Of a stretch of 64,000 nt of DNA, positions 383 through 34,020 are shown in pieces. The DNA is from Clostridiales bacterium (GTDB lineage: Bacteria; Bacillota; Clostridia; Christensenellales; Aristaeellaceae): NCBI GenBank assembly GCA_012729115.1, contig JAAYDR010000077.1, positions 1-64,000 on the forward strand, given 5' to 3'. The notes beneath the pieces were generated by a model. The model worked only from the letters and a program-made list of their open reading frames with translations. It searched no databases and had not been told where the DNA came from. Within the stretch, counting starts at the first letter, position 1, and each line of letters opens with the position of its first letter. A program made the position numbers and the translations under genes.

Positions 383-1897
383 TTACCACGAGGATAAGGG
401 TTTTACAAACGTAACGTTCGCGGCTTTTAGCGGTTTCCAATCGCCTTTTAGGCCAGACTTCGGTAGTGTCTCATATAGGAAGAGCCAGAACTCGTCAAAA
501 GAGTCAGTATCGTTTGCAAGTGCCTGGGCACGCTGCTTAAGTATTCTAACATCAGCAACCAATCCTTTTTCTCGGGCGTATATCACTGATAGTGTGAGAA
601 CAACGCAGTCATTGCTTTTAATGGAATTTTCTATTGTGTGTTCATCAATTTCAAATTTGTACTTGATTGCGAAGAATAATGCATAAGCAACCAGTTCGTA
701 ATTATTTGTTAAGAGGCCATTCCTATAAATTTGTTTCGCATATTCTTGAACGCAACTATGCCTCTGGCACTTTCTGCAATACTTCATGAAAACATACTCA
801 TCCATAATCGCTACCAAGTATGGATATAGCATGGAAAGATTCATAATTGTTTTCGCACAATACTCCGCAGCATTCTCAGTTAAATCTTCACCAGACAGAA
901 CCTTAATTGCATAATTAAGGATTGATGCATTTTCTTTTGATGAGTGCATTAATTCTACTGCATGATCCAGAAATGACCGTACAAGAATATAGTCTGTTTT
1001 TCCATATGATGTTTTCAACTGAAGTGAGTTAAGCTTTCGTTGCCATTGTTCCGTTACAGCTAAGGGCAATTTTGATATTTCTGTCTTTTTATGGTTTAGT
1101 GACAGATCAAATGCGCGAAGGGAGGCCCCGAGATCCGTTAAAAACTTCTGTCCCTCCTCATAACTGTCGACAAAACATGTGTAATCGTCTATTGCACGCA
1201 CAAACTGCCACTTGCAGAGTTGCTCATCTATTGCAACAAGGATTACCTCTGCTAATAAATTCGATGCATGTGGTCCAATTAGCAATCCATGAGTTTCGTC
1301 GTGTGTCATCCTACGAGTTCGATAATCTACTTGGTTGAACCATAAGGATTTGTCATTACGCTGTTGTTTGGCTACTTCTTTTGTCGCGAGAGCCCAACTC
1401 AGTGCATGCGTATACATGCTTGGAAAGCAGGACGATATATCAGCTTTCACCATGTAGCGCTTTCCAAATGAGATGTCAACTTCCGGTGATCCATCTGTGC
1501 GCCAATTGCTATAGTTCATCCGAAAGAGTTCTGGCTTACCGTACATCTTTCTGATATGAATTCTGCTTACCCGATAACTCTGGTTTTGTGTTCTTGAGAT
1601 AAAATAAGTCTGAAATGCATTCCAATGATCTCTCAGAAAGCTACATAGCAGTTGATAAGCCATTGGATTTGGGATCGCAAGAGACCTTGGAACATTAATG
1701 TTGCGCATATTTTCGTAGTGTATATACTTATGGGGCTGGTCTTGGAATTGTGTATGGGGAGATTGGCAATAATTGAAGAAACCCTCGGAGGTGAATGCAG
1801 GGGGAAGTTTTTCTGAAAAGAGTCCATGTGCTAACAGTCCACAATACAACTCATCCTTACTAATTTCTCCCATGAAATCCTTATATTGCTTCTGCAA
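383..1897 (-). CDS. Reverse transcriptase of the unknown/Abi (UG, DRT-like) group
   Basis: About 504 residues. The RT palm is visible: IPNP near the N-terminus, first catalytic Asp (D153) in KADISSCFPSMY, then GLLIGPHASNLLAEVIL, and the second Asp pair (D237-D238) in RAIDDYTCF. The usual Tyr before xDD is Ala here. The C-terminal half, after about residue 270, is a long helical region without nuclease motifs. ADIxxCFPSxYTH and GLxIGPxxS are typical of the UG/Abi reverse transcriptases, many of which are phage-defence (DRT) genes that stand alone. I chose TTG at 1897 because GGAGGG lies 7 nt upstream; the ATG at 1912 precedes that ribosome site. The gene is more AT-rich than its surroundings, which suggests transfer. 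Defence is inferred from family; the exact class is not determined. Confidence 0.8.
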   Translation of the reverse strand: MQKQYKDFMGEISKDELYCGLLAHGLFSEKLPPAFTSEGFFNYCQSPHTQFQDQPHKYIHYENMRNINVPRSLAIPNPMAYQLLCSFLRDHWNAFQTYFISRTQNQSYRVSRIHIRKMYGKPELFRMNYSNWRTDGSPEVDISFGKRYMVKADISSCFPSMYTHALSWALATKEVAKQQRNDKSLWFNQVDYRTRRMTHDETHGLLIGPHASNLLAEVILVAIDEQLCKWQFVRAIDDYTCFVDSYEEGQKFLTDLGASLRAFDLSLNHKKTEISKLPLAVTEQWQRKLNSLQLKTSYGKTDYILVRSFLDHAVELMHSSKENASILNYAIKVLSGEDLTENAAEYCAKTIMNLSMLYPYLVAIMDEYVFMKYCRKCQRHSCVQEYAKQIYRNGLLTNNYELVAYALFFAIKYKFEIDEHTIENSIKSNDCVVLTLSVIYAREKGLVADVRILKQRAQALANDTDSFDEFWLFLYETLPKSGLKGDWKPLKAANVTFVKPLSSW

Positions 1898-1979
1898 GTA
1901 TATACCCTCCATAAATTTGAGCGACCAACCGGTCGATTACAATAAAGTTCGCAATTTCATAAAATAATGGCAGAGCCAT
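1881..1979 (-). CDS. Small hydrophobic ORF overlapping the reverse transcriptase start
   Basis: A 32-codon frame starts with ATG five nt after GGAG and ends in TAA at 1881, 17 nt inside the reverse-transcriptase gene. The product is mostly hydrophobic (starts MALPLFYEIANF, ends GGYILAEAI) with one Arg and two Asp/Glu-containing patches. The overlap would allow translational coupling, so it may be a leader peptide that sets expression of the TTG-started gene, or a small partner protein. No family is recognised and it could be fortuitous. Confidence 0.4.
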   Translation of the reverse strand: MALPLFYEIANFIVIDRLVAQIYGGYILAEAI

Positions 1980-5980: not shown

Positions 5981-6220
5981 TTACAGCCCGTCAGCCACAG
6001 CTTCCGCCCACCAGCTTTCAAACCGTTGCCGCATATCGCCCTCCAGGTCTGGCGTGTGATGCACGCCTGGCAGCACTCTCATGTCCACGTCATATCTCCA
6101 TTGGCCTTCCGGCGTCTGGTATGCATCGATCTGACGGCACAGCCAGATGTTTACAAGCCCGCTCACCCCGTGCTCTATGGTGTAGGCCGGCGGCATGCAT
6201 GCCAGGTTGCGGAGTACCAT
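5981..6220 (-). CDS. Conserved-type small phage protein, function unknown
   Basis: 79 residues with no signal peptide or membrane segment. It is rich in aromatic residues near the C-terminus (RFESWWAEAVADGL). It starts 3 nt after the preceding stop and has codon use like its neighbours, so it is probably real. The position between the tail-fibre chaperone-like gene and the lysis cassette hints at a tail or fibre accessory role. Confidence 0.6.
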   Translation of the reverse strand: MVLRNLACMPPAYTIEHGVSGLVNIWLCRQIDAYQTPEGQWRYDVDMRVLPGVHHTPDLEGDMRQRFESWWAEAVADGL

Positions 6221-6223
6221 CTG

Positions 6224-6661
6224 TCAGTCGCCTCCTGGTCCCGGCGCCACAGGCCACTCCACGGCCCAAGGAAAGCCCTCCTGCTGCGGCACGTCGCGCA
6301 GTGCCTGGCGGTAAGCGGCCCACTGGGTGCGCGCTTCCTCGCTGGTTGGGAAATCGGCGATCTGTGTGCAGTCGCAGCCGGCCAGCAGCCTGTCCCGCTC
6401 TGCCCGCACCTCGGCGGCCAACCTGGCGGCCTCTATAGCCCTGGCGTGCTCCACCCATCGCTGGAGCGCACCCCATACCCGGTTCTCCAGGTCGCTTTGC
6501 CACTGTGTTTCCATGGTGTAGCGGTCATAGGTGTAGACTGGCCCGGCCCCTTCGCCATCCTGGGTTTCGGTGATATTTGTGCAAAGCGATACGCAAGCGC
6601 GGCCATCATCCAGCCGCTCAATGGTGACCGCCTCCGGCCTTGTGTTGCTGGTATCCTTCAA
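6224..6661 (-). CDS. Putative tail fibre assembly chaperone
   Basis: 145 residues. The C-terminal third carries the signature of phage tail assembly chaperones of the APC type: CDCTQIADFPTSEEARTQWA, then YRQALRDVPQQEGFP and a Pro-rich end (VEWPVAPGP). The central part is helical and Arg/Glu rich. Such proteins usually help fold or attach the fibre encoded upstream, here the DGR-diversified fibre, with the retroelement lying between the two genes. Confidence 0.7.
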   Translation of the reverse strand: MKDTSNTRPEAVTIERLDDGRACVSLCTNITETQDGEGAGPVYTYDRYTMETQWQSDLENRVWGALQRWVEHARAIEAARLAAEVRAERDRLLAGCDCTQIADFPTSEEARTQWAAYRQALRDVPQQEGFPWAVEWPVAPGPGGD

Positions 6662-6663
6662 AC

Positions 6664-6930
6664 CTATCCCTCCTTGCTTTTCTTGCTTGTTCCTGCGCCG
6701 ATCTCCCGCTTGACCGCCTCCACGTCAATGCAGGGCGTGATATATCGCTCGGTGAACCGCTTATGATTGCAATGCTTAGCCCACCCGATCCGCGACATAA
6801 CGCTTTGCAGGCATTGCAGCGGCACCTCCCGGCCCTGCCGCTTCAGCTTGTTAATCTTCCGCGCCTGCCTCCTGCATCCCAGGAAGATGTTGTCGCGCAG
6901 AACCGTTACCGTGTGATACTTTGCCTTCAC
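6664..6930 (-). CDS. C-terminal (thumb) part of the DGR reverse transcriptase, separate ORF
   Basis: 88 codons from a GTG one nt after the stop of the reverse-transcriptase ORF, in the +1 frame. The product has the C-terminal features of phage DGR reverse transcriptases: VLRDNIFLGCRRQARKI, then SVMSRIGWAKHCNHKRF and ERYITP. The upstream ORF ends at GYKFYK, where this segment should continue. Reading AAA, skipping one T, then GAT GTG would fuse the two. It is therefore a displaced half of one enzyme through frameshift mutation, programmed frameshift or reinitiation. It is not an Avd homologue, and no avd gene was found. Confidence 0.75.
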   Translation of the reverse strand: MKAKYHTVTVLRDNIFLGCRRQARKINKLKRQGREVPLQCLQSVMSRIGWAKHCNHKRFTERYITPCIDVEAVKREIGAGTSKKSKEG

Positions 6931-6931
6931 A

Positions 6932-7903
6932 TCATTTCACTCGCATTTTGTAGAATTTGTAGCCGCCCATATCGACGGGATATGTGCCCGCCCGGCACTT
7001 GCGCTTGCCATCGCTGCCCACGATCAGCTCCCCGATCTCCTTGATTTCCCATGTTTCTTTGACCGATAGCCCCAGCTCGTCGCGGAGGTATGCAATGATG
7101 GCTCGGACCGCCTTTTCCAGGTCGCGCCTGCTGCTGCCGATCAGCAGCATGTCGTCCATGTAGCGGACGTAATGCTTAACAAAGGACACGCGCTTGCCGC
7201 GCCGTGTCTTATATAGGCCCTGCACAATGTAGTGATCAAGCCCTTGTAAATGGTAGTTCGCAAGCCATGGGCTGATATAGAAGCCCACCGGCATGCCCGG
7301 CCCGGATGTGTCCAGTATTCTGCGGATTAAATTCAAAATGGGCCGGTCAGCTATGACGCGCTCCAGCTGCCGCATCAGCAGGTCGATGTTTATGTTTTCG
7401 TAAAACTTGCGAATATCGAGCTTCACAAAATACTTCACATCAGGCTCGCGTATCCACTTTTGGATGGACTGCCTGACCAGCTTCAGCCCGCGCCCTGGCA
7501 GGCTGCCGCAGCAGAACGCATACATACCGCGCATAAGGGCGGCCTTGATCGTATTGATCAAAGCCCAATGCGCGATATGATCATCAAATGTGGCCTTGGC
7601 AATATTGCGGATTTTCCCGTTGGGCATCCGGCGCGTGGAGCGCTGGGGAGGGTGCGGCTGCCATTCTCCGCTCTTGACCTTGCGGGACATCACCGCCGCG
7701 TACTGGCGCACCTTCTCTGGTACAACCTGGTTGCTGTACTCCTTTTGCGCTCCCTTGTTGGCTGCTGTGTCTGTGGCAATCTCTCGGCACAGCAGCCGTC
7801 GCATTGCGTAGCCTCTGCGCTTGCCCTTTATGCCGTCGTAGGTCGCGGCGTAGAAGGTGGCTTCGGCGCAGAATGTATTCCAAAGGTCCTTGAACCTTTT
7901 CAT
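6932..7903 (-). CDS. DGR reverse transcriptase, N-terminal and catalytic part
   Basis: 323 residues. Group-II-intron/DGR-type RT motifs in order: LPGRGLKLVRQSIQKW, catalytic D163 in KLDIRKFYENI, GMPVGFYISPWLANYHL, and YMDD (D250, D251) in VRYMDDMLLIGSS. It makes cDNA from the template-repeat RNA with errors at adenines and so rewrites the variable repeat of the fibre gene upstream. DGR enzymes normally have SQ in the GxxxSQ motif; here it is SP. The ORF stops at 6932 before the thumb region, which continues in the next ORF. ATG at 7903 follows GTGAGGAT. It lies directly downstream of the template repeat, the usual DGR order. Confidence 0.92.
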   Translation of the reverse strand: MKRFKDLWNTFCAEATFYAATYDGIKGKRRGYAMRRLLCREIATDTAANKGAQKEYSNQVVPEKVRQYAAVMSRKVKSGEWQPHPPQRSTRRMPNGKIRNIAKATFDDHIAHWALINTIKAALMRGMYAFCCGSLPGRGLKLVRQSIQKWIREPDVKYFVKLDIRKFYENINIDLLMRQLERVIADRPILNLIRRILDTSGPGMPVGFYISPWLANYHLQGLDHYIVQGLYKTRRGKRVSFVKHYVRYMDDMLLIGSSRRDLEKAVRAIIAYLRDELGLSVKETWEIKEIGELIVGSDGKRKCRAGTYPVDMGGYKFYKMRVK

Positions 7904-8300
7904 GGCTTTTTATCCTCACGGCTCCCATACAAGCATGTCGCGGATTGCCCACGCGACGGGCCTGCTTTCGAGGCAGTACGCCCTACCAAGCCGCTCCAGT
8001 CGGATGATTTCAGTCCTTTCAGACCACGGAAAAGGACACGCCGGTCTATGTCGGTGGATATGAGAAACCATCAGCGGGGTCCGCTTTCGCGTCCCGCCGA
8101 TGGATGACCGGAGAGGTTGGATAAAATGCCCCGCGCCATAGTTCGCGTTCGCGTTGGAAGGCGCGTTGTTCGCGTTGCGGTACCACGGCCCGGCGTTCGA
8201 GCCGTTGTTCCAGTTGCCTCCCACGCGCACGGCACGCACCACGTTCGAGTTGACGAGGTAGGCGGCCAGACGCTGGCCCAGCGGAGCGCGTGTCCAGTCC
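7904..8300 (-). ncRNA. Predicted template-repeat (TR) RNA region of the DGR
   Basis: The interval between the fibre gene and the reverse transcriptase holds the template repeat plus about 220 bp with no ribosome-bound gene. In known DGRs the RNA spanning the TR and the spacer to the reverse transcriptase is the template and primer for mutagenic cDNA synthesis. The exact ends are not visible. An open frame crossing it is taken as a by-product of the protein-like TR. Confidence 0.55.
8128..8264 (-). repeat. DGR template repeat (TR)
   Basis: 137 bp matching 8376-8512 (the variable repeat) except at 10 positions. On the coding strand every difference is an adenine in this copy and another base in the VR. 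The TR is rich in AAC codons when read in the fibre frame (about a dozen Asn), the classic design in which A-mutagenesis reaches many amino acids without making stops. Confidence 0.96.
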
Positions 8301-8323
8301 CGTTTAGGCTCATTGGGTTAGAA

Positions 8324-8360
8324 GGGGGTGCGCCCCCTCGCGGCTACGCCGCACACCCCC
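8324..8360 (-). other. GC-rich hairpin beside the variable repeat
   Basis: GGGGGTG (8324-8330) pairs with CACCCCC (8354-8360), and inside it GCGGC-TAC-GCCGC forms a second stem. It lies 15 bp beyond the VR and contains the fibre stop codon. Known DGRs need a hairpin or cruciform just downstream of the VR for efficient target recognition; this is a good candidate for that element. Confidence 0.7.
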
Positions 8361-10449
8361 GCCTGGAAAAGTAAAGCCCCGCGCCATAGTTCGCGTTCGC
8401 GATGGAAGGCGCGGAGTTCGCGATGCGGGACCACGGCCCGGCGGTCGAGCCGTAGCTCCAGGAGCCTCCCACGCGCACGGCACGCACCACGTTCGAGTTG
8501 ACGAGGTAGGCGTAGTCCGCGAAGAAAGTGCTGGCCGATCCGCCCGCTGTAAGCGTCGGTATCCAGATTTCAGGGTGATCCGGGTCCGGCGTCATTTCCT
8601 TGATGTAGCCGTCCGCGTAGCGGTCTGGCGGTGTTTCCGTGTCCAGCAGCACCCAGCCCTTGTCATTCAGCGCTGCGGCGGTGGACGGGTTGGCGATTGC
8701 CACGCCCATGTAGGCGTCGAGCTTCGGCAGGTGATACCACTGGAGCTTGTAGGTATCGGCGGCCACCTCGACGCGCACATCCATCAAGTCCTGGCAGGTC
8801 ATCATCTGATTGCCCCATGGGTTTTCACGCCACCGGTAGCGGCACGGATACCGGCCATCGCTGTTGCTGACGGGCGATCCGCTTGGCGTCAGCACGCCCG
8901 CGCATGCGCCGGTGTTGTATGGCCGATTGTTGATAGTCGGCGCGGTGACCGTGGTGATGTCCTTCGCCCCTGGGTAGGGGGCAAGGGTGATGAGGCGGTG
9001 GGTGCCGGAGGCATTCGGCGTGCCGTCCGGGTCGCAGGGCTCTATGCTCTGGATTGCGTGGGACGCCTTCGCAGCTTCGCTGTATGTCGTGTTGATGTAC
9101 ACATTCTGGCCAGCCCGGTGATATCCGCCGATGGTCGCGGTAACAACGATGTGGGTGCTGTCAATCACGCTGTCCACCGCGTCGGCGGCATAGCGTCCGG
9201 ACGTGAAGCCTGCCATGATGCTCTGCAGGTTCGTGGTAGCAAACTCTACCATCGCCAATAAGGTCTCGTAGTGAGATACTGCGATGGGCATCATGGACGC
9301 ATAGGCGCCGGCGTCGCCGTTGTAGCTTCGGCAGCTTGTCCACAGGCCGGACCAGTGGCCGCATTCATTGCGCAGGCCGGGAAGGCTCACGGCTTTTCCG
9401 TCCGTGTTCAGCGCGAGCGCGTAGCAAGGCAGATCCACATAGTCCAGCTCGTTGCCGTCCTCGTCGAAAAACAGTGGGTGCAGGCTCCACCCTGGCTGAT
9501 GGTATGCCGACACTCCAACTATCCCTGCTGCCATGTCCTGGTAGTAGTATGTTTTGTAGCACCTTACGGCCACATAGTCGCCCATGGACCCATCCTCGGC
9601 GTAGTCGGCGTCTCCATACCAGGAAGCGGGCGTCACATAGGTCTTTCCGTCCGCGACCGTGACGCTCCCCACAAACTTGCGCCGGTTGAAGGGCGGCAGG
9701 TTGTCAAAGTCATTCACAGCCGTGGCGCTGTCCGTGCCCACGGCCGCCACAAGGCCTTTAGCGTCCCATAGGCGTTTCAAAGTAGGCGAGCTTCCGCCCA
9801 CGCCAGAAGCGCCGTACTTCGGTGCCTCAATGGATCCGATGTACTCACCAGGGACCCTCCCCTGGGCGTCCAGCGGACAGATTCCATTGGCAACCCCCTT
9901 CTGGGCGTTGATGGCAGCCGGCACGCTCGCCGCCGCACTATTCGCGGCCGTGGCCGCCTCTCCGGCCGCCCCCGCTGCCGCGTTCGCCCCCGCCGTGGCC
10001 TCCTCGCAGGCCGCAATCTGGGCCAGCAGCGTCTCCAGGTCCGGCACCACATGCTCCGGATCCACCACGGCTCCGCTGGGCTCCTTCTCCACCCGGGCCA
10101 CCATAGTGCCCAGGGTAACGGTCTCGGTGGCGTCCGGGCTGCTCAGGCGCATCACGCACAGCAGCGGGCCGGGTTTGGCATAGCACTCGCTTTTGAGGCG
10201 CACGCTGGCCACGTTCCCGCTGAGAGTGCCGTCCACCGGTACATAGCTCTCGGAGGCGCCCCCCCCCCGTTGGAAATAGCCCCGCACCGTGCCGGCCAGC
10301 TCTACGGCCTGGCCATGCCGGAATACAGCGATCTCCCAGGTGTGGGCATTCTTGTCGCCCTGCATCATCAGGGCCGTGGGCAGGATCCGCGGCTGCACAT
10401 AGCCGCTGTCCAGGTCAATCCGCTGCCGGATGGTCCAAGTGTTGCTCAA
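8344..10449 (-). CDS. DGR-diversified tail fibre / receptor-binding protein
   Basis: About 701 residues. The first 125 residues resemble a BppU-like baseplate-anchoring domain (starting SNTWTIRQRIDL). An Ala-rich helical linker follows (about 150-190), then a long body ending in a C-type-lectin-like formylglycine/DUF1566-type domain (SWYGDADYAEDGSMGDY.., RYRWRENPWGNQMM..). The last 45 residues are the variable repeat, with diversified positions in SWSYGSTAGPWSRIANSAP. It presumably binds the host surface. The start is the TTG at 10449, overlapping the previous stop as TTGA and preceded by AAAGGAGG; the upstream ATG would put 33 extra nt inside the previous gene. The N-terminal domain assignment is moderate; the DGR assignment is firm. 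Confidence 0.88.
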   Translation of the reverse strand: MSNTWTIRQRIDLDSGYVQPRILPTALMMQGDKNAHTWEIAVFRHGQAVELAGTVRGYFQRGGGASESYVPVDGTLSGNVASVRLKSECYAKPGPLLCVMRLSSPDATETVTLGTMVARVEKEPSGAVVDPEHVVPDLETLLAQIAACEEATAGANAAAGAAGEAATAANSAAASVPAAINAQKGVANGICPLDAQGRVPGEYIGSIEAPKYGASGVGGSSPTLKRLWDAKGLVAAVGTDSATAVNDFDNLPPFNRRKFVGSVTVADGKTYVTPASWYGDADYAEDGSMGDYVAVRCYKTYYYQDMAAGIVGVSAYHQPGWSLHPLFFDEDGNELDYVDLPCYALALNTDGKAVSLPGLRNECGHWSGLWTSCRSYNGDAGAYASMMPIAVSHYETLLAMVEFATTNLQSIMAGFTSGRYAADAVDSVIDSTHIVVTATIGGYHRAGQNVYINTTYSEAAKASHAIQSIEPCDPDGTPNASGTHRLITLAPYPGAKDITTVTAPTINNRPYNTGACAGVLTPSGSPVSNSDGRYPCRYRWRENPWGNQMMTCQDLMDVRVEVAADTYKLQWYHLPKLDAYMGVAIANPSTAAALNDKGWVLLDTETPPDRYADGYIKEMTPDPDHPEIWIPTLTAGGSASTFFADYAYLVNSNVVRAVRVGGSWSYGSTAGPWSRIANSAPSIANANYGAGLYFSRRGCAA
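8376..8512 (-). repeat. DGR variable repeat (VR)
   Basis: 137 bp at the 3' end of the fibre gene, 90 % or more identical to the TR. Ten substitutions change eight codons (for example AAC to TCC, AGC, TAC, ACC, ATC; TAC to TCC), all at TR adenines. Outside those positions there is no divergence, so the last retrohoming event was recent. Homology ends with GGCGCGGGGC, the likely initiation-of-mutagenic-homology end. Confidence 0.96.
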
Positions 10450-12896
10450 AAGTCTCCGCCTCCTTTGGATTGCACAAAGCATTGCACGTATACGCTTACC
10501 ACCGCCCGGGTGGCCTTGTCCGGGGTCAAAACGACCTCGTGCCAGTCCCCGCGCTTGATCTTTCCGTTGGCGTCCTTGCTCAGCAGCGCCGTGATGTCCA
10601 TCTCCGTCTTGGCGTCTGTGATCGGATCCGGGTAGACGGTCCCATCCACCTCCAGGGTGAAGCTGGCGGCCGTGGTGCCCTCAAAGATCCCGTACACCAG
10701 GTTATGTGCATGATCCCCCAGGGTCACGTTGTGGGAATGGCTCCCCAGGCTCACGCTGTGGGTGTGGGGCGGCAGGGTCAGGGTTAGTTCCGGGATGGTC
10801 ATGGACACATACACGTCATGGTAATGCCCCATCCCATGGGTATGGGCCGCCCCCGCATGCCGGTGGGAGAAAGAGTGGGAATGCCCGCCGATGCTGTGGA
10901 CATGCGCCGCCCCTGTATGCCGGTGGGAGAAAGCGTGGGAATGCCCGCCGATGCTGTGGGTATGGCTGGGGATGCTGTGGGTGTGGCTGTCTCCCGCGTG
11001 CCGGTGGGAGAAAGCGTGGGAGTGCCCGCCGATGCTGTGGGTATGGCTGCCAACGGTATGGCTGTGGCTCGTGTTGTCGGACTCGCCGCAGCTGGGCGTG
11101 GTGGCTCCCGTATAGGTGCCGGTGGTTTGCTGGTGCTGGTGGCTGCCGATCGCGTGCCGGTGGCTGGCCGTGGCGCTTCCCGTGGATCCGCTGCCAGATC
11201 CGGAGGTATAACTGTCATTGGTCGCCGTATAGGCGACAGCAGCCCCTTCCGCGTCCACAGGCGTGCCACCGATGCCGCTGCCGGCGCTGCCCGTGGATCC
11301 GTCCCCGCCGCTGCCGGTGTTGTAGCTGTTGTTGGTGGCCGTGGCATTCACGGCGGCCCCTTCCGCATCCACCGGCGTGCCGCAGATGCCGCTGCCGGCG
11401 CTGCCTGTGTCATAGCTCGCATTGGTGGCCGTCACGGTCACGGCGTTGCCCTCCGCATCCACCGGCGTGCCGCCGATGCCGCTGCCGGCGCTGTCCGTGT
11501 TTCCCTTCTGGTATCCGCTCAGCGGTTCCAGGGGCAGGCTGGTGCTGGCCGTCTGCGCCACGATCCGCTGGGGCTCTGTGAGGATGGCCTCCCCGCCGGC
11601 CTCGCTGGTGCTGGTGCCACCGCCTCCGGAGCTGGACGTGGTCTCCGTGCTCCCGCCTGCGGCCGCGCCCTTCTCATAGGCCCGGTAGGCCTCCCGCTTC
11701 AGTAGAAACTTTACAGTGTTGATCCGGTAGGCGCTCTCCGGGATAGGCACGTTGAAGGTGGCCGGGTGGCTGGGGTCACAGTTGTCCGAAAACTGGAACA
11801 CATACAGCGACGTGGCACCCTGGCTGTTCAGCTCATGGATGCCCACCCTGTCCGCCAGTTGGTTCATGCTGTCCGCGGCGTCCTTGAGCGCGTTGGCAAT
11901 GGTGATCTCGATGTCCTGGGGCTTGTCCCGCACGCCCTTCTTGGCCACGGTCACGATCCGCGCCTGGAAGGAGATCCCGTGCTCCCCGTCCATCACCTGG
12001 GCCAGCTTGCCGGGCATGTAGTTGTCCCAGCGCTGGCCGGTCATGGCGTACAGATCCACCGCGGCGGCCTTGTAGGCAATATAGGGGTTCTTGTACCTCT
12101 CCAGCACGGCCATGCCCCGCTGCTTCAGCGTGGCGGCGTCCTGGATGGTGGTGTCCGCAAAGATGGAGCATTTCACGCCCCACGTGGAGATGGTGTCCGC
12201 GTCGATGTAGGGGAGACCGCCGTTCACCTTGGTGATGTTCAGCTGATTCACGCCTTCGCCGTATCCAAGGCAGTACATCCGGGTCACCATCTGGGTGGCG
12301 TCCATAGACTTTTCAATCTGCAGCAGATTGCGCATGTAGTGGATGCCGCAGCCGGCAGAACTGTCCGCCCGGCGCAGGTTGGCCGTCCAGGGCGTGGTGC
12401 TTGTGTCCCATTCCCAGGTGTAGTCCTCCACCAGCACGGCGCTCACGCTCATCAGGGCTGCCAGCAGCGTGCAGTTCTCCAGGTGGTAGGCAAACTGGTC
12501 ATGGAACTCGCATACCCCCAGCTGCCACCGGGGAACCGTCTGGTGGCCCAGGATGTATTCCAGCACATCCTCCGTGTAGATGCCATCCCCGCCGATCTCA
12601 TGGGCCGTAAAAAGCACGTCGTCTACCAGGGTGGCGGTCACGTGTTCTAAGTCGTATTCGCTCCATCCATCCGGCTGGTGCTGGGGCATGCCGATGATCC
12701 GGTACAGCCCCACGTCCCGCGCCCCGTCGTCAATGTGCACATAGTTGTTCGGCTCGCAAAACGCATGCTTGGGGTCGCTGGTGGGCAGTTGGAAGCTGCC
12801 GGTCCACAGGTCATTATGCTTCAGCTCATACCCGATGGCGTCAGCGTTCTCCAGGATTGCAAGCAGGCGCAGATCCTGGCCGTACACCTTCAGCAT
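10446..12896 (-). CDS. Tail-associated (Tal-like) protein with His-rich fibre region
   Basis: 816 residues. Residues 1 to about 345 form a prophage tail hub/Tal-like domain (VYGQDLRLLAILENADAIG.., siphophage minor structural type). A spacer rich in Gly, Ser and Thr follows with three copies of a GTPVDAEG..TATN repeat, then a region of about 150 residues containing 18 His-x-His motifs (SHTHSIGGHSHAFSHRH type), and a short C-terminal fold. HxH arrays bind metal along the axis of trimeric phage fibres such as the tip of T4 gp37, so a metal-stabilised needle is likely. No peptidase motif is evident. It lies between Dit and the variable fibre, the expected baseplate position. Confidence 0.8.
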   Translation of the reverse strand: MLKVYGQDLRLLAILENADAIGYELKHNDLWTGSFQLPTSDPKHAFCEPNNYVHIDDGARDVGLYRIIGMPQHQPDGWSEYDLEHVTATLVDDVLFTAHEIGGDGIYTEDVLEYILGHQTVPRWQLGVCEFHDQFAYHLENCTLLAALMSVSAVLVEDYTWEWDTSTTPWTANLRRADSSAGCGIHYMRNLLQIEKSMDATQMVTRMYCLGYGEGVNQLNITKVNGGLPYIDADTISTWGVKCSIFADTTIQDAATLKQRGMAVLERYKNPYIAYKAAAVDLYAMTGQRWDNYMPGKLAQVMDGEHGISFQARIVTVAKKGVRDKPQDIEITIANALKDAADSMNQLADRVGIHELNSQGATSLYVFQFSDNCDPSHPATFNVPIPESAYRINTVKFLLKREAYRAYEKGAAAGGSTETTSSSGGGGTSTSEAGGEAILTEPQRIVAQTASTSLPLEPLSGYQKGNTDSAGSGIGGTPVDAEGNAVTVTATNASYDTGSAGSGICGTPVDAEGAAVNATATNNSYNTGSGGDGSTGSAGSGIGGTPVDAEGAAVAYTATNDSYTSGSGSGSTGSATASHRHAIGSHQHQQTTGTYTGATTPSCGESDNTSHSHTVGSHTHSIGGHSHAFSHRHAGDSHTHSIPSHTHSIGGHSHAFSHRHTGAAHVHSIGGHSHSFSHRHAGAAHTHGMGHYHDVYVSMTIPELTLTLPPHTHSVSLGSHSHNVTLGDHAHNLVYGIFEGTTAASFTLEVDGTVYPDPITDAKTEMDITALLSKDANGKIKRGDWHEVVLTPDKATRAVVSVYVQCFVQSKGGGDF

Positions 12897-13872: not shown

Positions 13873-16800
13873 TTACACAAACACCATGCGGCTGTTCCGT
13901 CCGCTCATGCTCTTGGCGGATCTCCGTCGGGTGGCTTGGCTGATATTGGGCTCCAGCGCTGTCCCGAAGGCGTGCCCGTCCAGGCCAATCACCGCCGTTC
14001 CAAGGCCTCGCCTCTGCATGGCGTCCGCCAGTTCATCCCCCAGGCGCTCATAATCCAGCACGAAGGCGCTGCTGCCGGTCCCCGCTTCCGCGGCGGCCCG
14101 GCTGAGGCTCTGGGCGGCGCTTACCACTTGCCGTGTGTTGTTCTCAATGCCTAGTGCGAATCCTGTAGCATAGAACCGGCCCGCTTCCTCCATCACCCGG
14201 CTGGGGCTGGCGATGCCCAGCACCTCCCGGGCGGCGTTGTAGGCGGCCAGAGCGGCGGCCCGGGCCGCAGCCTCAATTCGGCTGCTGCCGTTGCGGATAC
14301 CCCGCACCATGCCGTCTGCAATGGCGTCCCCCACGGCCTGGAAGCGGGTAGCGCTGCTGCCCCCAATGGCGCTCCACAGGGCCGTCAGGGCATCGCTGCC
14401 CAGGCTGGCTGCATTGCCGCGTACCGTGGGCAGGCCCTGGCTGATGCCTGTGGCCACGCCTCCGGAGAAGGCCGCGCCGATGGTCCGCCCGCTTGGGGCG
14501 TTCATCCTTCCGGAGGCGGCGTCCACGCCTGCCTGGGCTGTATCCCTGGCGGCTGTCTCTATGTCGCTTTCCGCGTCCTCAATGGCTGTGATCGCCGCGC
14601 CGATCCAGTCCGCGCCTAGGGTGCTGCCCGCGTCGGTGGTCATCAGGGCGGCAGCGGCCGCCAGGGCGCTCCCGCAGGCAGCCTCCACGGCCGCGTTCAC
14701 GGTGGTTTCCCCGCCGGAGATGCCGGCGGCCATCCGCTCCATGGCAGCCTGGTAGGCTGCATTGGCCACGGCGGTCAGGGCGTTCGCAACTGCTTCCCTG
14801 TTGTCCTCGCTGCTTTCAATCCCGTCGGCAATGGCCTTGCGCACATAGCCGCCCAGCTCCTTGAACTTGGTGGCACTGGTTCCGCCCAGGCCCAGCACGC
14901 CCGTGGATTGCACCCCAAAGGCGGTGCCCAGGGCCGCGATCACCGCGTCATACACCTTGCCCGCAGCGCCGCCAAATGCGTCGGCTTTGGTCTCGTCCAG
15001 ACCGTCCCGCACGCCTGCCACCAGGTGCTTGCCATAGTCCCTGGTTTTCCAGCTGGTGCCGTTGGCGATGCCCATTTCGTTCATCATGGTCCACAGCACG
15101 TTTTTGGACACGTTGCGCACCGCCTGGTCCAGGGTGCCCTCGTTCTCGGTGATGCCGCTCTGCATGCCGGTCATGATGTCCTTGCCGGCGTTCTTGGCTT
15201 CCTTGCTTTCCTCGCTTTGGGTCCCGAAGCCAAAGATGCTCTTGATGGCCTCCCAGATCTTCCCGAAGATCTTCTTTACCGTTTCGCAGACGGCATCCAC
15301 TGCCGAAGCAAACCCGTCCAGCAGCCCCTGCAGGATAAACCCGGCCGCGCTTTGGGCTTCCGTGGAAGGGGAGGCAATGCCGAACACGCCCAGGATGGCC
15401 TGCCAGATGTTGCCGAAGATGGTGGTGATGCTGCTCAGCAGCGCGCTCACAGCGCTGCCCAGCCCGTCCACCAGGCCCTGAATCAGGTTCGTGCCCAGGG
15501 TGAGCCAGTCCACGGCAGCCAGGCCGTCCCAGATGGCCTGCACAATTTCCGGCAGCCGGGCGGCCAGGTCCGGAATGGCTCCCACCAGGGCTGTGGCAAA
15601 CTCCACGATCAGCGTAGCCGCCATGGTGATCAGCTCCGGCAGGTTGGCCGTGATGCCGTCCACAATGCCCGTCACGATGGACAGGCAGCTCTCGGCCAGT
15701 CCGGACACATTGGCCGTCAGGTTGGCGGCCAGGTAGGTGATCAGCTGGGTGGCCATGGCCGCGATAGGCTCCGCATTGGCCGCCACCGTGTCCAGCACGC
15801 TTTGCAGCAGCCCAAAGGCCGCGGGGATGATGGTCTCCGCCAGCTCCGGCAGCGCTACGCTAACGCCGGCCACCAGCTCTGCAAGGCCCTGCTGCACCGA
15901 GGGCAGCGCGTTGGTGATCTCCGTGGACAGATTGGCCAGGCCCTCCGTCAGGGAGGCGGTGAAGCCCAGCACGATTTCTCCAACCTCCCCCGGCTGCAGC
16001 CCGTCCTTCAGAGCCGTGCTCAGCTCTCCCAGGGAAGCGGTGGCGGCATCCGCCAGGGGCTGGAATGCAGGCACCAGCAGCAGCCCGATGGTGTTGCTCA
16101 ATCCTTCCGCCACGGCGTTCATCCGTTGCATGCTGTCGTCAAATCCGCCCAGGGTGGCCAACTGCTTGTCGCTGAACACCGTGCCCAGCTTCTGGGCTTC
16201 CTCGCCCAGGGCCTTCACGGCGTCCCCTCCGGCCAGAATCAGCGGGTTCAGGTCCTGGGCGCTTTTCCCAAACAGGTCCATAGCGATAGCGTCCCGCTGG
16301 GCCTCGTTGGTGATGCCGCCCAGGGCCGTGATGCAGTCCGCAAACACATCCTCGCTATCCCGCAGGTTCCCGTTGCTGTCGGTGATGCTCACCCCCAGGG
16401 CGGCAAACTTCTCCTTGGCCGAGTCGCTGCCGCTTCCCGCGTCGCCCATGGCCCGGACCATCCGGGCCATGCTGCCGGTGATGGTATCCACCGAGGTGTC
16501 CATGAAGTTGCTGGCAAAGGTCCATTTCTGCAGCTGATCCGCCGCAATGCCGGTCTGCTGGCTCTGGGTCAGCACATTGTCCGCCATGGCTCCCGCGCTC
16601 TTGGCCAGCTCATAGCCCTTTTCCGCGGCCTGTCCGGCCCATTGGGCGATCTGTTTCAGCCCGTTCCACGCTCCCTGCAGAGCGGCCAGAAAGCCAGCCC
16701 CCAGGGCGCCGGCGGCGCTTTTCAGCCCTTCCACCAGCTTGTCCCGCAGTGCCCCGGCCACGTCGCCCAGGCTCACTTCCATCTCGTCCAGCTTGCCGCT

Positions 16801-17160
16801 CACGGCGTCCAGCTGGCCCTCGGTGGCAATCTGCTCCGCCAGGGCGGCGTTCAAGGCCTTTTCCAGGTTGCGGGTTTCGTCTGCGTTTTCGCCGTACTTC
16901 TCCCGGCACTTGTCCAGCATCTCGGACAGGGTTCCGGTCTTTTCCCTTTGCAGGTCGTACTGGACAGCCAGTTCCTCATAACGCTGGCGCAGGTTGCCCA
17001 CGGTCTCGCCCTGGGCCTTCATCTCCGCGCTGGTCACGCTCATCTCGCTTTTCAGCGAGGCCATCCGCTGGGCTATGGAGCTCAGCGCCGCTTTGTACTC
17101 CTGCTCTCCGTCAATGCCGATCCGGGCGCGCAGCTTCGGCCCGCCTCCGCCTTTTGCCAT
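13873..17160 (-). CDS. Tail tape measure protein
   Basis: 1095 residues, the longest phage gene, placed after the frameshifted tail chaperones. The N-terminus is a coiled coil (about 25-130), followed by hydrophobic membrane-active stretches (LPELAETIIPAAFGLLQSVL.., repeated PEL/AAT helices at about 380-560) and Ala/Gly-rich amphipathic repeats (AIGGS/AALG..F..) towards the C-terminus. It sets tail length and helps genome entry. By the usual ratio of about 1.5 Angstrom per residue it predicts a tail in the 150-nm range. No lytic domain is seen. Confidence 0.9.
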   Translation of the reverse strand: MAKGGGGPKLRARIGIDGEQEYKAALSSIAQRMASLKSEMSVTSAEMKAQGETVGNLRQRYEELAVQYDLQREKTGTLSEMLDKCREKYGENADETRNLEKALNAALAEQIATEGQLDAVSGKLDEMEVSLGDVAGALRDKLVEGLKSAAGALGAGFLAALQGAWNGLKQIAQWAGQAAEKGYELAKSAGAMADNVLTQSQQTGIAADQLQKWTFASNFMDTSVDTITGSMARMVRAMGDAGSGSDSAKEKFAALGVSITDSNGNLRDSEDVFADCITALGGITNEAQRDAIAMDLFGKSAQDLNPLILAGGDAVKALGEEAQKLGTVFSDKQLATLGGFDDSMQRMNAVAEGLSNTIGLLLVPAFQPLADAATASLGELSTALKDGLQPGEVGEIVLGFTASLTEGLANLSTEITNALPSVQQGLAELVAGVSVALPELAETIIPAAFGLLQSVLDTVAANAEPIAAMATQLITYLAANLTANVSGLAESCLSIVTGIVDGITANLPELITMAATLIVEFATALVGAIPDLAARLPEIVQAIWDGLAAVDWLTLGTNLIQGLVDGLGSAVSALLSSITTIFGNIWQAILGVFGIASPSTEAQSAAGFILQGLLDGFASAVDAVCETVKKIFGKIWEAIKSIFGFGTQSEESKEAKNAGKDIMTGMQSGITENEGTLDQAVRNVSKNVLWTMMNEMGIANGTSWKTRDYGKHLVAGVRDGLDETKADAFGGAAGKVYDAVIAALGTAFGVQSTGVLGLGGTSATKFKELGGYVRKAIADGIESSEDNREAVANALTAVANAAYQAAMERMAAGISGGETTVNAAVEAACGSALAAAAALMTTDAGSTLGADWIGAAITAIEDAESDIETAARDTAQAGVDAASGRMNAPSGRTIGAAFSGGVATGISQGLPTVRGNAASLGSDALTALWSAIGGSSATRFQAVGDAIADGMVRGIRNGSSRIEAAARAAALAAYNAAREVLGIASPSRVMEEAGRFYATGFALGIENNTRQVVSAAQSLSRAAAEAGTGSSAFVLDYERLGDELADAMQRRGLGTAVIGLDGHAFGTALEPNISQATRRRSAKSMSGRNSRMVFV

Positions 17161-24322: not shown

Positions 24323-26035
24323 CTAGAATCTGAATACGGTCACATTGGCGGGCACCGTGTCCCCGCACACCGGGGCCTTCTGCATGGATACCGCGTGTGC
24401 GTCCAGAAAGGCCATAAATCCGTCGATCTTCCGGTAGCGGTTGCGCTTCACCGGCATCCAGTTTTCCTTATCCCGGTCCCGGTAATCGTTGCGCAGGCGC
24501 ACATTGTGGAAGTACCAGCGAAGCATGGGGTCGTTGTTGGTGATAAGCCGCCCGTCCAGCAGGATCTCCCGCACGTCCTTCATGGGGTCGTTCAGTGTCA
24601 GCGGCCCCTGGCGCACGATCTGGCAGTTGAAGCCCGCGCCCTCCAGCATGCGGGTCAGCCATACGGCATTGGCCGGGTCATAGCCGATGGAGATGATCTC
24701 ATACTTTTTGCCCTGCTCCTGAAACCACTGGTACACCACATCCTGGGGAATGTAATCCCCCTCGCAGATGGTCAGCAGCCCCTGCAGCGCCCATTCGTAA
24801 TAGGGGATCTTCTCGTTGTCCATCTCCACCTTCCGCTTGGGCACCCAGCTGTGATGGAGCACAAAGAGGTCCCCGTTGTCCAGGGGAAACTCCAGCGCGG
24901 CCGCGGTGAAGTCCTCCCGGGAGCTCAGGTCATACCCGCCGTAGCAGGCGCGGCCGGCCAGGCTCTCCAGGTCCACCTGCTTGCGGTTGCGGTTCAGCAC
25001 GCTGATGTCCACAAAGCTGGCATCGCTTACGTCCGCCATCACGTTCAGCTGCTTGCAGATAAAGTCCGCCCGCTCCTGGGGCACGTTCTTGCAGCGCTCC
25101 CAGTCGCTTTTCAGCTTCTCCAGGTTCAGCAGCACGCCCATGCTTGGGTTGGCCTTTACCCAGCAGCTGCTGTCATCCACATTGTCGGTGCTGTCCAGCT
25201 CGCAGATGAAGCTGAACAGCTGATCCGACACGCTGGCCGGCAGCATGCCGTCCTGCATGGCGTCGGAAAACAGGGCGTAGTAGTCCATCAGCGGGCCTTC
25301 AATCACCGTGCCCATGGTGGTGATGTACAGCGCCAGGGGCTGGCTGCGCTTGTTCATGCCCCGCTTGATGACGTTGATCAGCTTGTAGTCCCTGTACTCA
25401 TGGATCTCGTCAAAGATCCCCATGTGCGGGCTCAGGCCGTCCAGCTTGTGGCTGTCGCTGGCCCGGTGCTGGATGCTGCTGTTGGTTTTGTCATAGGTGA
25501 TGCTGCTTCGGGTCACGTTGAAGCGATTGGCCAGGAATGGGCTGGCCAGGATCTGCCGGGAGCACTCACCGAAAATAATGTTGGCCTGATCCTTGCTGTT
25601 TGCCAGCAGGTAGATGTCCGCGCCCCTTTCTCCGTCCTTGCTGGCCCCAAAGGTGGAATTGCCGGCCATCAGGGTGCTTTTGCCGTTGCCGCGCCCCACC
25701 AGGATCAGGGCTTCCCGGAAGCGGCGCAGGCCTGTGCGCTTGTCCACCCATCCGTAGATATTGCCCTCCACAAAGCACTGCCAGGGCATCAGCTCCATGG
25801 CCTGGTAGTTGCCCTTTGTGGGCGTTAAAAAGCGCTCCATGAACTCAATGGGCCGTACGGCCAGCCGTTCATCAAAGCGCCAGGGGTGCTCCGGGTTTTT
25901 TGATTTCTCAATGTCCAGCAGGAACCGGCTGCAGGACGCGCGCACTTTTTCACAGGCGATCAGCCGCCCCTGGGTCACGTCCTGCGCATAGCCGTAAATC
26001 TTGGACAGCGCGTCAGCTGTCCGGGAAGGCGTCAA
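24323..26035 (-). CDS. Terminase large subunit
   Basis: 570 residues of the Terminase_1/YmfN-like type. ATPase: Walker A LVGRGNGKST (about residue 115), Walker B MGIFDEIHE (about 207), and TTMG coupling motif. Nuclease: GGYDLSSREDFTAAAL (first acidic residue), GYDPANAVWLT, and a C-terminal KIDGFMAFLDA. It cuts concatemers and pumps DNA into the prohead. It likely starts at the TTG at 26035, six nt after GGAGGACGAG and 23 bp inside the small-subunit gene; no ATG is available near the N-terminal homology. Confidence 0.93.
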   Translation of the reverse strand: MTPSRTADALSKIYGYAQDVTQGRLIACEKVRASCSRFLLDIEKSKNPEHPWRFDERLAVRPIEFMERFLTPTKGNYQAMELMPWQCFVEGNIYGWVDKRTGLRRFREALILVGRGNGKSTLMAGNSTFGASKDGERGADIYLLANSKDQANIIFGECSRQILASPFLANRFNVTRSSITYDKTNSSIQHRASDSHKLDGLSPHMGIFDEIHEYRDYKLINVIKRGMNKRSQPLALYITTMGTVIEGPLMDYYALFSDAMQDGMLPASVSDQLFSFICELDSTDNVDDSSCWVKANPSMGVLLNLEKLKSDWERCKNVPQERADFICKQLNVMADVSDASFVDISVLNRNRKQVDLESLAGRACYGGYDLSSREDFTAAALEFPLDNGDLFVLHHSWVPKRKVEMDNEKIPYYEWALQGLLTICEGDYIPQDVVYQWFQEQGKKYEIISIGYDPANAVWLTRMLEGAGFNCQIVRQGPLTLNDPMKDVREILLDGRLITNNDPMLRWYFHNVRLRNDYRDRDKENWMPVKRNRYRKIDGFMAFLDAHAVSMQKAPVCGDTVPANVTVFRF

Positions 26036-31119: not shown

Positions 31120-34020
31120 TCAGAACGGCATTTCCTCGTCGTCCACCACGGTGTAATCCTGCGGCACAGGCTCCGGCGGTACCGGTCCAGGCTCCGGCGG
31201 CACCGCCCCCGCCCCCGGGTGGAGCTCCAGGCGCAGCTGCTCCTCCATGGGGTTCTCCCCGTCAATCATCCGCCTTGGGATGTACAGCACCCGCTCGGCA
31301 GGCTTCCCGACCCGCACCCGCTTCAGGGCGGTGTAGGTCACAGTGCCCGGCGGCGGGGTGATGATCCCGTCGTTGCGCATCTGCCGGTACAGGCTGCGTT
31401 CCGGCAGGGGAATGCTGTTGTCCCGCTTGCGCAGCTGCTCGCTCACCAGGGTGTAGGCGGTCTCCGGCATGATGTAGTAATACTGGGTATCCATCCAGCC
31501 CACCATGCCGCGGATTGGGTCGCCGGTGATGGTGCTGTCCGTCAGATCCCGCACGGCGGCCACGTGGCTGGTCAGCATCTCGCCCAGCGTCCGGATGAAG
31601 GCCTTGCTGGGGCGCTCCTCGGCGGCCTCCGCTGCCTGACGGCGGCTGTTGTCCAGCATCGTTTCCCAGGCATCCGCCCGGGCCTGGTCGGCCATGGCCT
31701 GGGAGATCCCGCCCTTCTCCACCATGTACCGCAGCATCATCTCAAAGCCGATCGTCAGGCAGGCCACCGCGGCGGGTGCCCGCGAGTGGGCCTTTTTGTG
31801 ATTTTCCTTCTGCACCTTGCTCCGCAGCTCCACAAAGCGCTCCCGCAGCTGATCCGGCAGCTTGTCCATCTGCGGCAGCAGCCACTCAATGTACCCGCGC
31901 ATGGCTTTGGCCAGGTAACCCCGGCGGGCGGCCTCCTGGGCGCTGGTCAGCATCTCGTCCATCACCACGTCCCCTTTTTCCGCGTTGATCAGGTAGTAGC
32001 GGGCTACGCCGCTTTCCCCGATGTCCGGGGTGCTCTCTCCGCTCAAAATGCTGACGCACCGGGGCGGCGTGTCCTCGCTCAATGTGCGGTCCGCGTTCAT
32101 CCGCTTGCGGGTGCTGCCGTCCCCAAAGGTCCGGCTGAGGGCCTGGGCCGTGGCTTCCATCTTGCGCCGCTCCTGCACGCTGTGTGTTGGGTGGTAGTCG
32201 TCCACCACGATGGGGACATCCTTCAACAGGAAGGCCTTCTTCTGGATGTGGTTGGCCGTGTCATGGAAGCTGGCCGGCAGGCTGTCAAAGGAAAAATCCC
32301 CAAAATGGGAAAGGGCCAGGGCGCTGCACACGCTCTTGCCGCAGCCCGTCTCACCTACAAGGAACACGCTGAAGGCGGGCGTGCAGCCGGCCCGCTGCAT
32401 GGGCTCCCGCAGGGGTGCCAGGTAGGCTGCGGCCAGCAGCGGAACCATCATGTGGTGGCTGGCCCTGTCCAGCAGGCTGAAGCTGCTGATCATGGCGTCA
32501 TCAAGGGAAATGGCATCAAAGTCCGCTTTGCTGTCTCCTCCGTCCAGGCGGTAGCGCTGCAGGCCGCTGCCCAGCTCCACGCTCACGTCCTCTGTCCCCA
32601 CGGCCCCGCCCTGGTACAGGAAAGCCCACTTTCCGTTGATCTTCCGCCAGCCGGTATGGGTGTACTCCGTGTAGCGCCGGGCGCATTTCTCGCCCGCGGC
32701 CGCCACCACATAGCGCAGGTAGTCCTTGGTGGTGCTGCCCGGCATGATGGTGCCGTAAAATCCCCAGTTGTCCATTACCCAGCCCATCCGGTCATAGCTC
32801 TTGCTGCTCACCGTCACCCGTGGCAGCTTCATGCCGTGCCGGCTCCATCCGTCAATCAGGATGGCGGTCTCCACGCTCACGCCGTCGTCCCGCTTCACCT
32901 CCGCCATGGGTATGCAAGCGAAATTGCACAGCTTGCGGTGGTTCTCCTGACTCTCCCACTTGCAGATGCAGCCGTCCTCCACACAGAAACCCGGGATGCT
33001 GTTCAGGGCATCCATAGCCATGTCCCGGTCCGGGTCGCCGGATCCTTCTCCGACCTCCGCGCCGTCCGCCTTTTCCAGGGCGTTCAGCGCCTCCGTGGTC
33101 AGCACCGGTTCCGCTTCCTCCAGCTGCCGCAGGATCTCCAGCCCCCGCTTTTTCTTCACAGCGGTAAATAAGTCCGTTATATCCGCCTTCTCTGGCAGAT
33201 CCACGCCGCATTTGCGCAGGTCCAGTAGCTTCACGCTGCGGCACACCGGCAGCAGCAGCCTGGCCACCTTCCGGCGGTCATAAGTGCCCGTTTCGTCAAT
33301 ATCCGGAAGGATCACCACATCCGCGCCGGCCAGGGCCTGGGTGTGCTCCTCCCGCCACTTGGTGGCCGTGCCCTTCTTGCTGGCCCCGCCCGGGTTGGTG
33401 GTGGCGGTGAAGCCCAGGGCGGCCATGTTATCGGCGTCCTTCTCGCCCTCCACCAGGTACACCGGCTTCCCGGCCTGAATGGCCGCCCGCACTTCCGGCA
33501 GCCTGTACAAGGGATGCCGCACCTGGCTGGCCTCATAGACGTACCCGTCCCGCTTGGCCTTGGGATTCTTGGGATCATGCACCCGCTGCAGAAAGGTCTT
33601 TTTCCGCGCTTCCCGGCCGTTCTCGTCCGTCTCTGTCAACTCAAAGCGACACACTTCAAAAAGCGGTTTCCCTTGTTCGTCCGTGTAGGGGTACACTTTC
33701 ACCAGCTCGCCCAGATTCTTGCGCTGCTTGGGAGCCTGCTTTTGGGCCGCGGGCTTCCGGGCCGGATCCGCGTGGCTGGCAGGATAGAGGTCCCTGGGCT
33801 GCACGTTCAGCGTGCGCAGGATGTCCTGGTTGCTGCATCCGGCCTGGCAGCAGATCTTGATCGCCCACGCGCCCCGGTTCTTCCCGCGCTCCAGCGGCCC
33901 CTCGGTCACGCACAGGCTGGCGGTCTTATCGTCATGGACCGGGCAGCGGGCCATATACTCTCCGCTGGCGTTCGGTCCGCTTTCCACGCGCAGAAGCGCC
34001 AAAAAATCGGATAATTCCAT
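31120..34020 (-). CDS. Phage replication primase-helicase (CHC2 / Toprim / DUF927-like)
   Basis: 966 residues. Zinc-finger primase start (C26 and H29 in RCPVHDDKTASL, C57-C62 in ICCQAGCSNQDIL), Toprim at about 180-260 (VYLVEGEKDADNMAALG and VVILPDIDETG), a DUF927-like middle, and an SF3/AAA-type ATPase with Walker A VGETGCGKS near residue 558 and an acidic Walker B (VPIVVDDYHP). It primes and unwinds DNA in phage replication and is the only large replication gene, so DNA polymerase must come from the host. A Pro-rich tail (GPVPPEPVPQD) ends the protein. Confidence 0.88.
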   Translation of the reverse strand: MELSDFLALLRVESGPNASGEYMARCPVHDDKTASLCVTEGPLERGKNRGAWAIKICCQAGCSNQDILRTLNVQPRDLYPASHADPARKPAAQKQAPKQRKNLGELVKVYPYTDEQGKPLFEVCRFELTETDENGREARKKTFLQRVHDPKNPKAKRDGYVYEASQVRHPLYRLPEVRAAIQAGKPVYLVEGEKDADNMAALGFTATTNPGGASKKGTATKWREEHTQALAGADVVILPDIDETGTYDRRKVARLLLPVCRSVKLLDLRKCGVDLPEKADITDLFTAVKKKRGLEILRQLEEAEPVLTTEALNALEKADGAEVGEGSGDPDRDMAMDALNSIPGFCVEDGCICKWESQENHRKLCNFACIPMAEVKRDDGVSVETAILIDGWSRHGMKLPRVTVSSKSYDRMGWVMDNWGFYGTIMPGSTTKDYLRYVVAAAGEKCARRYTEYTHTGWRKINGKWAFLYQGGAVGTEDVSVELGSGLQRYRLDGGDSKADFDAISLDDAMISSFSLLDRASHHMMVPLLAAAYLAPLREPMQRAGCTPAFSVFLVGETGCGKSVCSALALSHFGDFSFDSLPASFHDTANHIQKKAFLLKDVPIVVDDYHPTHSVQERRKMEATAQALSRTFGDGSTRKRMNADRTLSEDTPPRCVSILSGESTPDIGESGVARYYLINAEKGDVVMDEMLTSAQEAARRGYLAKAMRGYIEWLLPQMDKLPDQLRERFVELRSKVQKENHKKAHSRAPAAVACLTIGFEMMLRYMVEKGGISQAMADQARADAWETMLDNSRRQAAEAAEERPSKAFIRTLGEMLTSHVAAVRDLTDSTITGDPIRGMVGWMDTQYYYIMPETAYTLVSEQLRKRDNSIPLPERSLYRQMRNDGIITPPPGTVTYTALKRVRVGKPAERVLYIPRRMIDGENPMEEQLRLELHPGAGAVPPEPGPVPPEPVPQDYTVVDDEEMPF

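Follow-up and report, generated by a model that had tools for sequence, protein, structure and literature searches.

A conserved split of the reverse transcriptase gene in a prophage diversity-generating retroelement

Until the study of Benler et al. (2021; PMC8008677), the reverse transcriptases (RTs) of diversity-generating retroelements (DGRs) were, according to the available part of that paper, predicted as one open reading frame (ORF). For the RT of Quimbyvirus the same text describes three overlapping frames, for which two programmed frameshifts are proposed, together with adenine-specific variation, and this is the one printed precedent for a split DGR RT that was found. The available extracts of DiGReF (PMC3521204) report DGRs with frameshift-broken RTs and repeats differing only at adenines, which were read as recent inactivation or as sequencing error, and list SP among the variants of the SQ dipeptide. 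Within full-text literature that leaves most subscription papers outside, and in which papers were judged largely by title and the start of the abstract, neither a two-ORF RT under selection like the one described here nor the CGG pattern discussed below was reported.

The DGR described here lies in a prophage within a 64,000-nt stretch (the window) of a Clostridiales bacterium (assembly GCA_012729115.1, contig JAAYDR010000077.1). With BPP-1 it shares the adenine-only pair of template repeat (TR) and variable repeat (VR) ending a tail-protein gene, the inverted repeat behind the VR and the RT fold, whereas the RT of BPP-1 is in one piece and accompanied by an Avd protein and that of the window lies in two ORFs, with no Avd found in the cassette. 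The likeness to the Quimbyvirus group extends to the phage-borne DGR with a VR in a tail-region gene, the multi-frame RT with +1 offsets, the adenine-specific VR/TR differences and the conservation as protein on both sides of the breaks; the Quimbyvirus RT, however, spans three frames with overlaps of 68-173 nt and breaks that we place at CGG, AGG or GGG codons, whereas that of the window has one break with an overlap of 5 nt, lacks such a codon and starts its second part at a GTG. The truncated-RT DGRs in the extracts of DiGReF (PMC3521204) resemble the window in the broken RT frame, the adenine-only differences and SP for SQ, but those breaks were read there as recent inactivation or error, while the split in the window is shared with a distant relative and is under selection.

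A repeat search of the window returned a single pair of 140 nt with 92% identity. The TR (8125-8264, minus strand; 29 adenines) is non-coding, and the VR (8373-8512, minus strand) lies in frame at the 3' end of the ORF at 8344-10482 (minus strand). On the minus strand, which is the coding one, the copies differ at 11 of 140 sites, touching nine codons, and all 11 are adenines in the copy at 8125-8264 (P = 5.1e-9; 2.9e-8 for 10 differences in 137 nt). The first-pass annotation had described 137 bp with ten differences in eight codons; the pair and its adenine specificity are real, and its extent needs correction, as the 137-bp version stops short of the last adenine change (A to T, three bases from the end). 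The recent retrohoming proposed there is plausible because the VR carries no change at any other base. Downstream of the TR the window and the related contig L251, described below, differ by indels of 1-2 nt that leave no reading frame kept, which places the TR outside any supported gene. The spacer between TR and RT (7904-8124, minus strand), aligned with that of L251, presumably belongs to the template RNA; a dN/dS value for its frame was discarded, as the two frames compared were out of register. Sequence and fold analysis furthermore revealed a GC-rich inverted repeat at 8324-8360 (arms 8324-8333 and 8351-8360, each 10 nt, 9 of 10 positions complementary), which begins 12 nt beyond the VR and is possibly the target hairpin, by analogy with BPP-1, for which the available extracts report that a hairpin of this kind is needed for homing (PMC3240598).

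When the rest of the window's own assembly was searched with the repeat, the sole other match (90 nt, 72% identity, E 2e-7) turned out to be part of a different DGR on contig C29. This second DGR (L006:5111-8245) has its TR at 6442-6555 and its VR at 7036-7149 with seven differences, all at adenines, and it encodes an RT with the SQ motif, a 409-aa target and a bAvd-like ORF (PF22296, 1.9e-10). Another RT, at 383-1912 (minus strand) of the window, was rejected as a DGR RT, being instead similar to the antiviral Drt4 (NF041749, 5.3e-118, 395 bits, under the 450-bit cut-off); it adjoins pieces of an IS3-type transposase (integrase core 2059-2616, HTH 2656-2958).

The target gene (8344-10482, minus strand) encodes a 712-aa protein matching phrog_5302 ('tail protein', E 1.1e-25), with a homologue in L251 that is 65% identical over the best segment. 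With the VR at its 3' end and phage genes around it, this agrees with the earlier assignment of the target as a prophage tail protein. That it is a baseplate fibre and that the DGR varies host tropism, as was also stated in that annotation, may be the case. The predicted model of residues 208-712 (pLDDT 64.1) is too weak to name the fold, and its match to the DGR variable protein 5vf4 is likewise weak (E 0.018), ranking behind unrelated hits. The prophage is temperate and siphovirus-like, as shown by PHROG matches for the large terminase (24326-26035), tape measure (13873-17160), primase (31123-34020) and integrase (37905-39242); four of the ten prophage proteins searched against PHROG had no match. 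In the neighbourhood of the cassette a tail-fibre assembly protein, a holin and tail proteins were found by PHROG, and a Prophage_tail endopeptidase and an NlpC/P60 protein by Pfam. A prophage tail endopeptidase-like protein of 816 aa (10446-12896, minus strand) contains internal repeats in which Gly, Ser, Thr and His are abundant. Searching phage records with the prophage DNA gave no match, and a search of 200 genomes of the family with the tail protein matched the window's own genome alone.

The RT that was expected behind the TR is indeed encoded there by an ORF of 323 aa, but this ORF ends before the thumb, which is encoded by a separate 88-aa ORF in another frame. Part A (6932-7903, minus strand) comprises fingers and palm with YMDD (PF00078, 7.8e-19) and ends at a TGA stop, and part B (6664-6930, minus strand) begins at a GTG in the +1 frame relative to part A. 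At the junction (6928-6934, minus strand) the stop of part A occupies 6932-6934 and the GTG 6928-6930, so the two frames share just 5 open nt. The codons at the junction are GTG AAA TGA T, with neither CGG nor AGG, and the +1 codon does not encode Gly. Both ORFs match consecutive stretches of the same profiles, i.e., positions 113-379 (part A) and 378-445 (part B, E 7e-7) of phrog_1423 as well as 97-376 and 373-455 (iE 3.7e-15) of an RT HMM built from 128 distinct intact RTs, and these matches identify the 88-aa ORF as the RT thumb, displaced by +1. As it matches the RT thumb profile, this ORF was set aside as a candidate Avd. If one-base offsets are placed hypothetically in 35 intact GC-rich RTs, overlaps of at most 8 nt arise at 0.38% of 12,772 positions and overlaps of at most 20 nt at 1.5%, with a median of 193 nt.

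In RT motif 4, SP takes the place of the SQ dipeptide in the window and in L251. Instead of the one full-length RT ORF used as a criterion for DGRs, the window has two ORFs in different frames; it stays a DGR despite the split since one full-length ORF is not required in Quimbyvirus, as described in the available part of Benler et al. (2021; PMC8008677). Structure prediction for the read-through protein of parts A and B (AlphaFold2 with 64 relatives) resulted in a model with pLDDT 91.0 and pTM 0.88, in which the break falls in a beta-hairpin turn between the strands 315-321 and 329-335. The top PDB match of this model by Foldseek is the DGR RT 8ub7 (E 1.1e-17, TM 0.88 by target length), which we take to be that of BPP-1. 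According to the model, two chains could span a break in this turn by pairing of their strands, or a single chain could accommodate it as additional residues.

The split is shared by L251, an IMG/VR contig found by a scan with the tail protein, in which the RT is divided at the same place. Identity to the window is 82% for part A and 88.6% for the thumb, and Nei-Gojobori estimates amount to dS 0.635, dN 0.094 and omega 0.149 for part A and dS 0.525, dN 0.071 and omega 0.135 for the thumb, next to an omega of 0.288 for the tail gene. Judged from this one sequence pair, both halves appear to have been kept as protein since the two lineages parted. The part-A stop of the window is absent in L251, where part A runs on to a stop whose first base lies 8 nt past that of the GTG; the frame overlap in L251 is 17 nt when measured as for the 5 nt of the window. 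The GTG and the residues following it are common to both, the two preceding codons of the part-B frame differ, and synonymous changes reach the junction on both sides; in the two sequences, the start codon of part B is thus conserved at the edge of a conserved protein. Before this GTG, the predicted pairing with the anti-Shine-Dalgarno sequence reaches a weak -4.7 in the window and a moderate -8.3 in L251, compared with -9.1 at the RT start in both and an average of -3.5 over 130 interior positions, and does not decide between a separate start and recoding. L251 carries a single copy of the repeat (L251:7932-8072), with the VR flank upstream, the TR flank downstream and the spacer between VR and TR missing, due either to recombination between the repeats or to assembly collapse; given that it has no separate TR/VR pair, its DGR may be non-functional.

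L251 escaped the first RT scan, the exact peptide patterns of which are absent from it, and further relatives may have been missed for this reason. Scans with the thumb and with the RT pair found the L251 contig alone, and the search for a near strain of the window found none, leaving L251 as the one close relative. RT searches of 200 genomes of the family (E 1e-60) and 17 genomes of the genus (1e-20) returned only the window's own genome, and a palm search of 308 family genomes returned it together with one match at 43%. Among plasmids no RT match reached 60% identity, and a 24-base pattern of the TR had 0 matches in viral contigs.

As a DGR, the locus is an ordinary member of a populous phage clade. 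The best 80 of 115 confirmed RT relatives from viral contigs and the best 80 of 254 from bacterial genomes were fetched, and 121 of these 160 loci carry an adenine-biased repeat pair (127 of 167 loci in the whole scan, six from the window's own genome). Many of the nearest loci resemble the window in the order and spacing of VR, TR and RT, and related cassettes with an intact RT leave scant room for an Avd between these elements. An HMM census of 203 distinct RTs counted 175 as a single ORF, 19 as split and nine as partial, in a sample biased by the use of split RTs as queries in some scans; with the RT of the window as query, the RT was split in five of 63 distinct full-span viral RTs and in none of 77 from the genome collection. 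An alternative count, by which about 49 relatives encode the thumb and the rest of the RT in a single ORF, was discarded in favour of this census, about a dozen of its thumb matches lying elsewhere in the ORF. In the nearest RT group, L259-L279 share the extra residues of the window before the YxDD region, and all 19 distinct full-span RTs newly found in the search for this group are single ORFs. The nearest single-ORF RTs have a short hairpin (e.g., FYRDHTEVR), whereas the window and L251 are about eleven residues longer there.

The breaks cluster at two places of the profile, at about 276-289, just before GxPxGxxxSQ, and at about 360-378, before the thumb. The RT of L010 (L010:4819-5822), counted as split, changes frame near its N-terminus outside both common places, and the break of L067, located at a T run and with a -1 (or +2) offset, may represent an error. 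Differences at adenines out of all TR/VR differences were 20/20 in L010, 17/18 in L039, 13/13 in L066, 14/15 in L067, 10/10 in L078, 16/17 in L176, 16/16 in L183, 19/19 in L185, 14/14 in L186, 13/15 in L191, 13/13 in L220, 13/13 in L245, 12/12 in L246, 19/20 in L247, 17/17 in L248 and 19/19 in L250. No VR/TR pair was seen in L251 or in L182 and L249, the RTs of which start about 330 nt or less from the end of the locus.

A distinct pattern is found in eight low-GC contigs (L066, L078, L182, L183, L185, L186, L191 and L220), where the +1 offset occurs at NNN-CGG-N and the +1 reading yields GGN, a conserved Gly; L191 has two consecutive sites of this kind. In each of the eight, the break holds the sole CGG among ORFs of at least 150 aa (715-1885 codons per contig), and three unsplit relatives have zero CGG in 1663-1820 codons. 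The pair L183-L185 gives dS 0.92 and dN 0.091 before the break and 0.70 and 0.028 after it, and the pair L066-L182 gives 1.46 and 0.215 before and 0.76 and 0.204 after, indicating purifying selection on both sides. We liken this CGG +1 break to the shift of Ty1. The break of L039 is compatible with AGG or CGG, and that of L067 does not fit. L176 (PV4-TP1) and L245-L250 are placed with Quimbyvirus by their three-frame RT and LoVEphage hits; an assignment of L176 as hankyphage-like was wrong. L176 and L245-L249 have two breaks each, placed by homology at CGG, AGG or GGG codons, and the exact shift codon in this group is not fixed because the overlaps measure 68-173 nt. In a tree of 27 RTs, split and unsplit forms interleave, the unsplit L181 being nested among split ones, and a minimum of two changes is required by well-supported branches; the split label is no more clustered on this tree than in 57 of 500 shuffles. 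The break has thus arisen or disappeared more than once, a history compatible with repeated inactivation as well as with regulation. The L078-type RTs and L220 belong to the same DGR family as the window and likewise have a +1 RT break conserved on both sides, but their break lies at CGG before the conserved Gly in low-GC phages, whereas the window has 60% GC and uses CGG freely (20 per 1000 codons) with none at the junction. The CGG mechanism was accordingly discarded for the window, whose junction has neither CGG nor AGG and whose +1 codon is not Gly.

We favour, at about even confidence, gene fission of the RT into a two-chain enzyme. In the lineage that includes the window and L251, additional sequence in the turn of the palm-thumb beta-hairpin would have shifted the thumb by +1 and placed it after a GTG codon. 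Part A would end at its stop and part B would start within a few bases at the GTG, by translational coupling or independent initiation, and the two chains would associate via the extended strands of the hairpin into a functional RT, which would copy the TR RNA with errors at adenines, the cDNA then replacing the VR of the tail-protein gene. Conditional parts of this proposal are thus the existence of two chains instead of a single recoded one, their assembly in trans, the activity of the enzyme and any effect on host binding. Fission is supported because 175 of the 203 RTs cross the break point as one ORF and the split is conserved between the window and L251, and because an overlap of 5 nt is rare among hypothetical offsets and the break falls at a predicted hairpin turn. 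It is weakened because one relative alone has this split and itself has no separate TR/VR pair, because the Shine-Dalgarno-like pairing in the window is weak and because the other DGR RTs with a split appear to be recoded and not divided. Moreover, RTs do not usually have their palm and thumb on different chains, which also counts against fission.

The main rival is that ribosomes undergo a programmed +1 frameshift where the two frames meet, AAA UGA U being one candidate site. This would yield some full-length single-chain RT, and the +1 offset with its overlap of 5 nt fits such an event, as do the conserved +1 offsets and purifying selection on both sides of the break in other phage RT clades, the good predicted fold of the read-through protein and the printed reading of Quimbyvirus (available part of PMC8008677). 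We nevertheless regard it as rather unlikely in the window, where the UGA and its preceding codon are not conserved in L251, the two share no shift-prone codon, synonymous changes occur right at the junction and the CGG or AGG before Gly of the other clades is lacking; a UGA shift like that of prfB was lowered in rank since L251 does not keep the UGA. Because the GTG is kept while the stop and the preceding codons are not, and because synonymous changes reach the junction, a start of part B at the GTG fits better than a conserved shift signal. A broken RT, caused by sequencing error or by a recent inactivating mutation in a decaying prophage, is the least probable reading: frameshifted RTs with adenine-only repeats were explained in this way in the extracts of DiGReF (PMC3521204), but L251, which comes from an independent assembly, has the same split at dS 0.5-0.6, both halves showing omega 0.13-0.15, and the thumb ORF is intact. 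This shared split and the purifying selection on both halves disfavour error and recent decay. It is also improbable that part A alone is the enzyme, or that the thumb-derived ORF is now a separate accessory protein replacing Avd. Avd or other accessory proteins are not universal among DGRs, and a Pfam search for Avd in four proteins of the cassette (ORFs 6664-6930, 5981-6220, 6224-6661 and 8344-10482) gave no match, while the second DGR of the genome has one; part B is, like Avd, a small ORF beside the RT. Its homology to the RT thumb, however, argues against this role, as does the little room for an Avd in related cassettes with an intact RT.

As a summary, the DGR itself is real and ordinary, and the conserved split of its RT is the part that the first-pass annotation had not noticed. 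Tentatively, and at somewhat less than even confidence, we propose that the lineage of the window and L251 has a two-subunit DGR RT with the thumb supplied in trans, that phages recurrently restrain or regulate their mutator by splitting or recoding its RT at set positions of the structure, and that low-GC phages reserve CGG for a single +1 site. An RT divided between palm and thumb into two chains would be unusual and is directly testable, and a shift at the only CGG of low-GC phages makes a sharp prediction on codon starvation. If this is true, live DGRs are overlooked or mislabelled by surveys that insist on a single full-length RT ORF, and what a small ORF next to an RT encodes may be the thumb of that RT rather than an Avd. 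That frame breaks recur in DGR RTs suggests translational control by phages over how much of the mutator is made.
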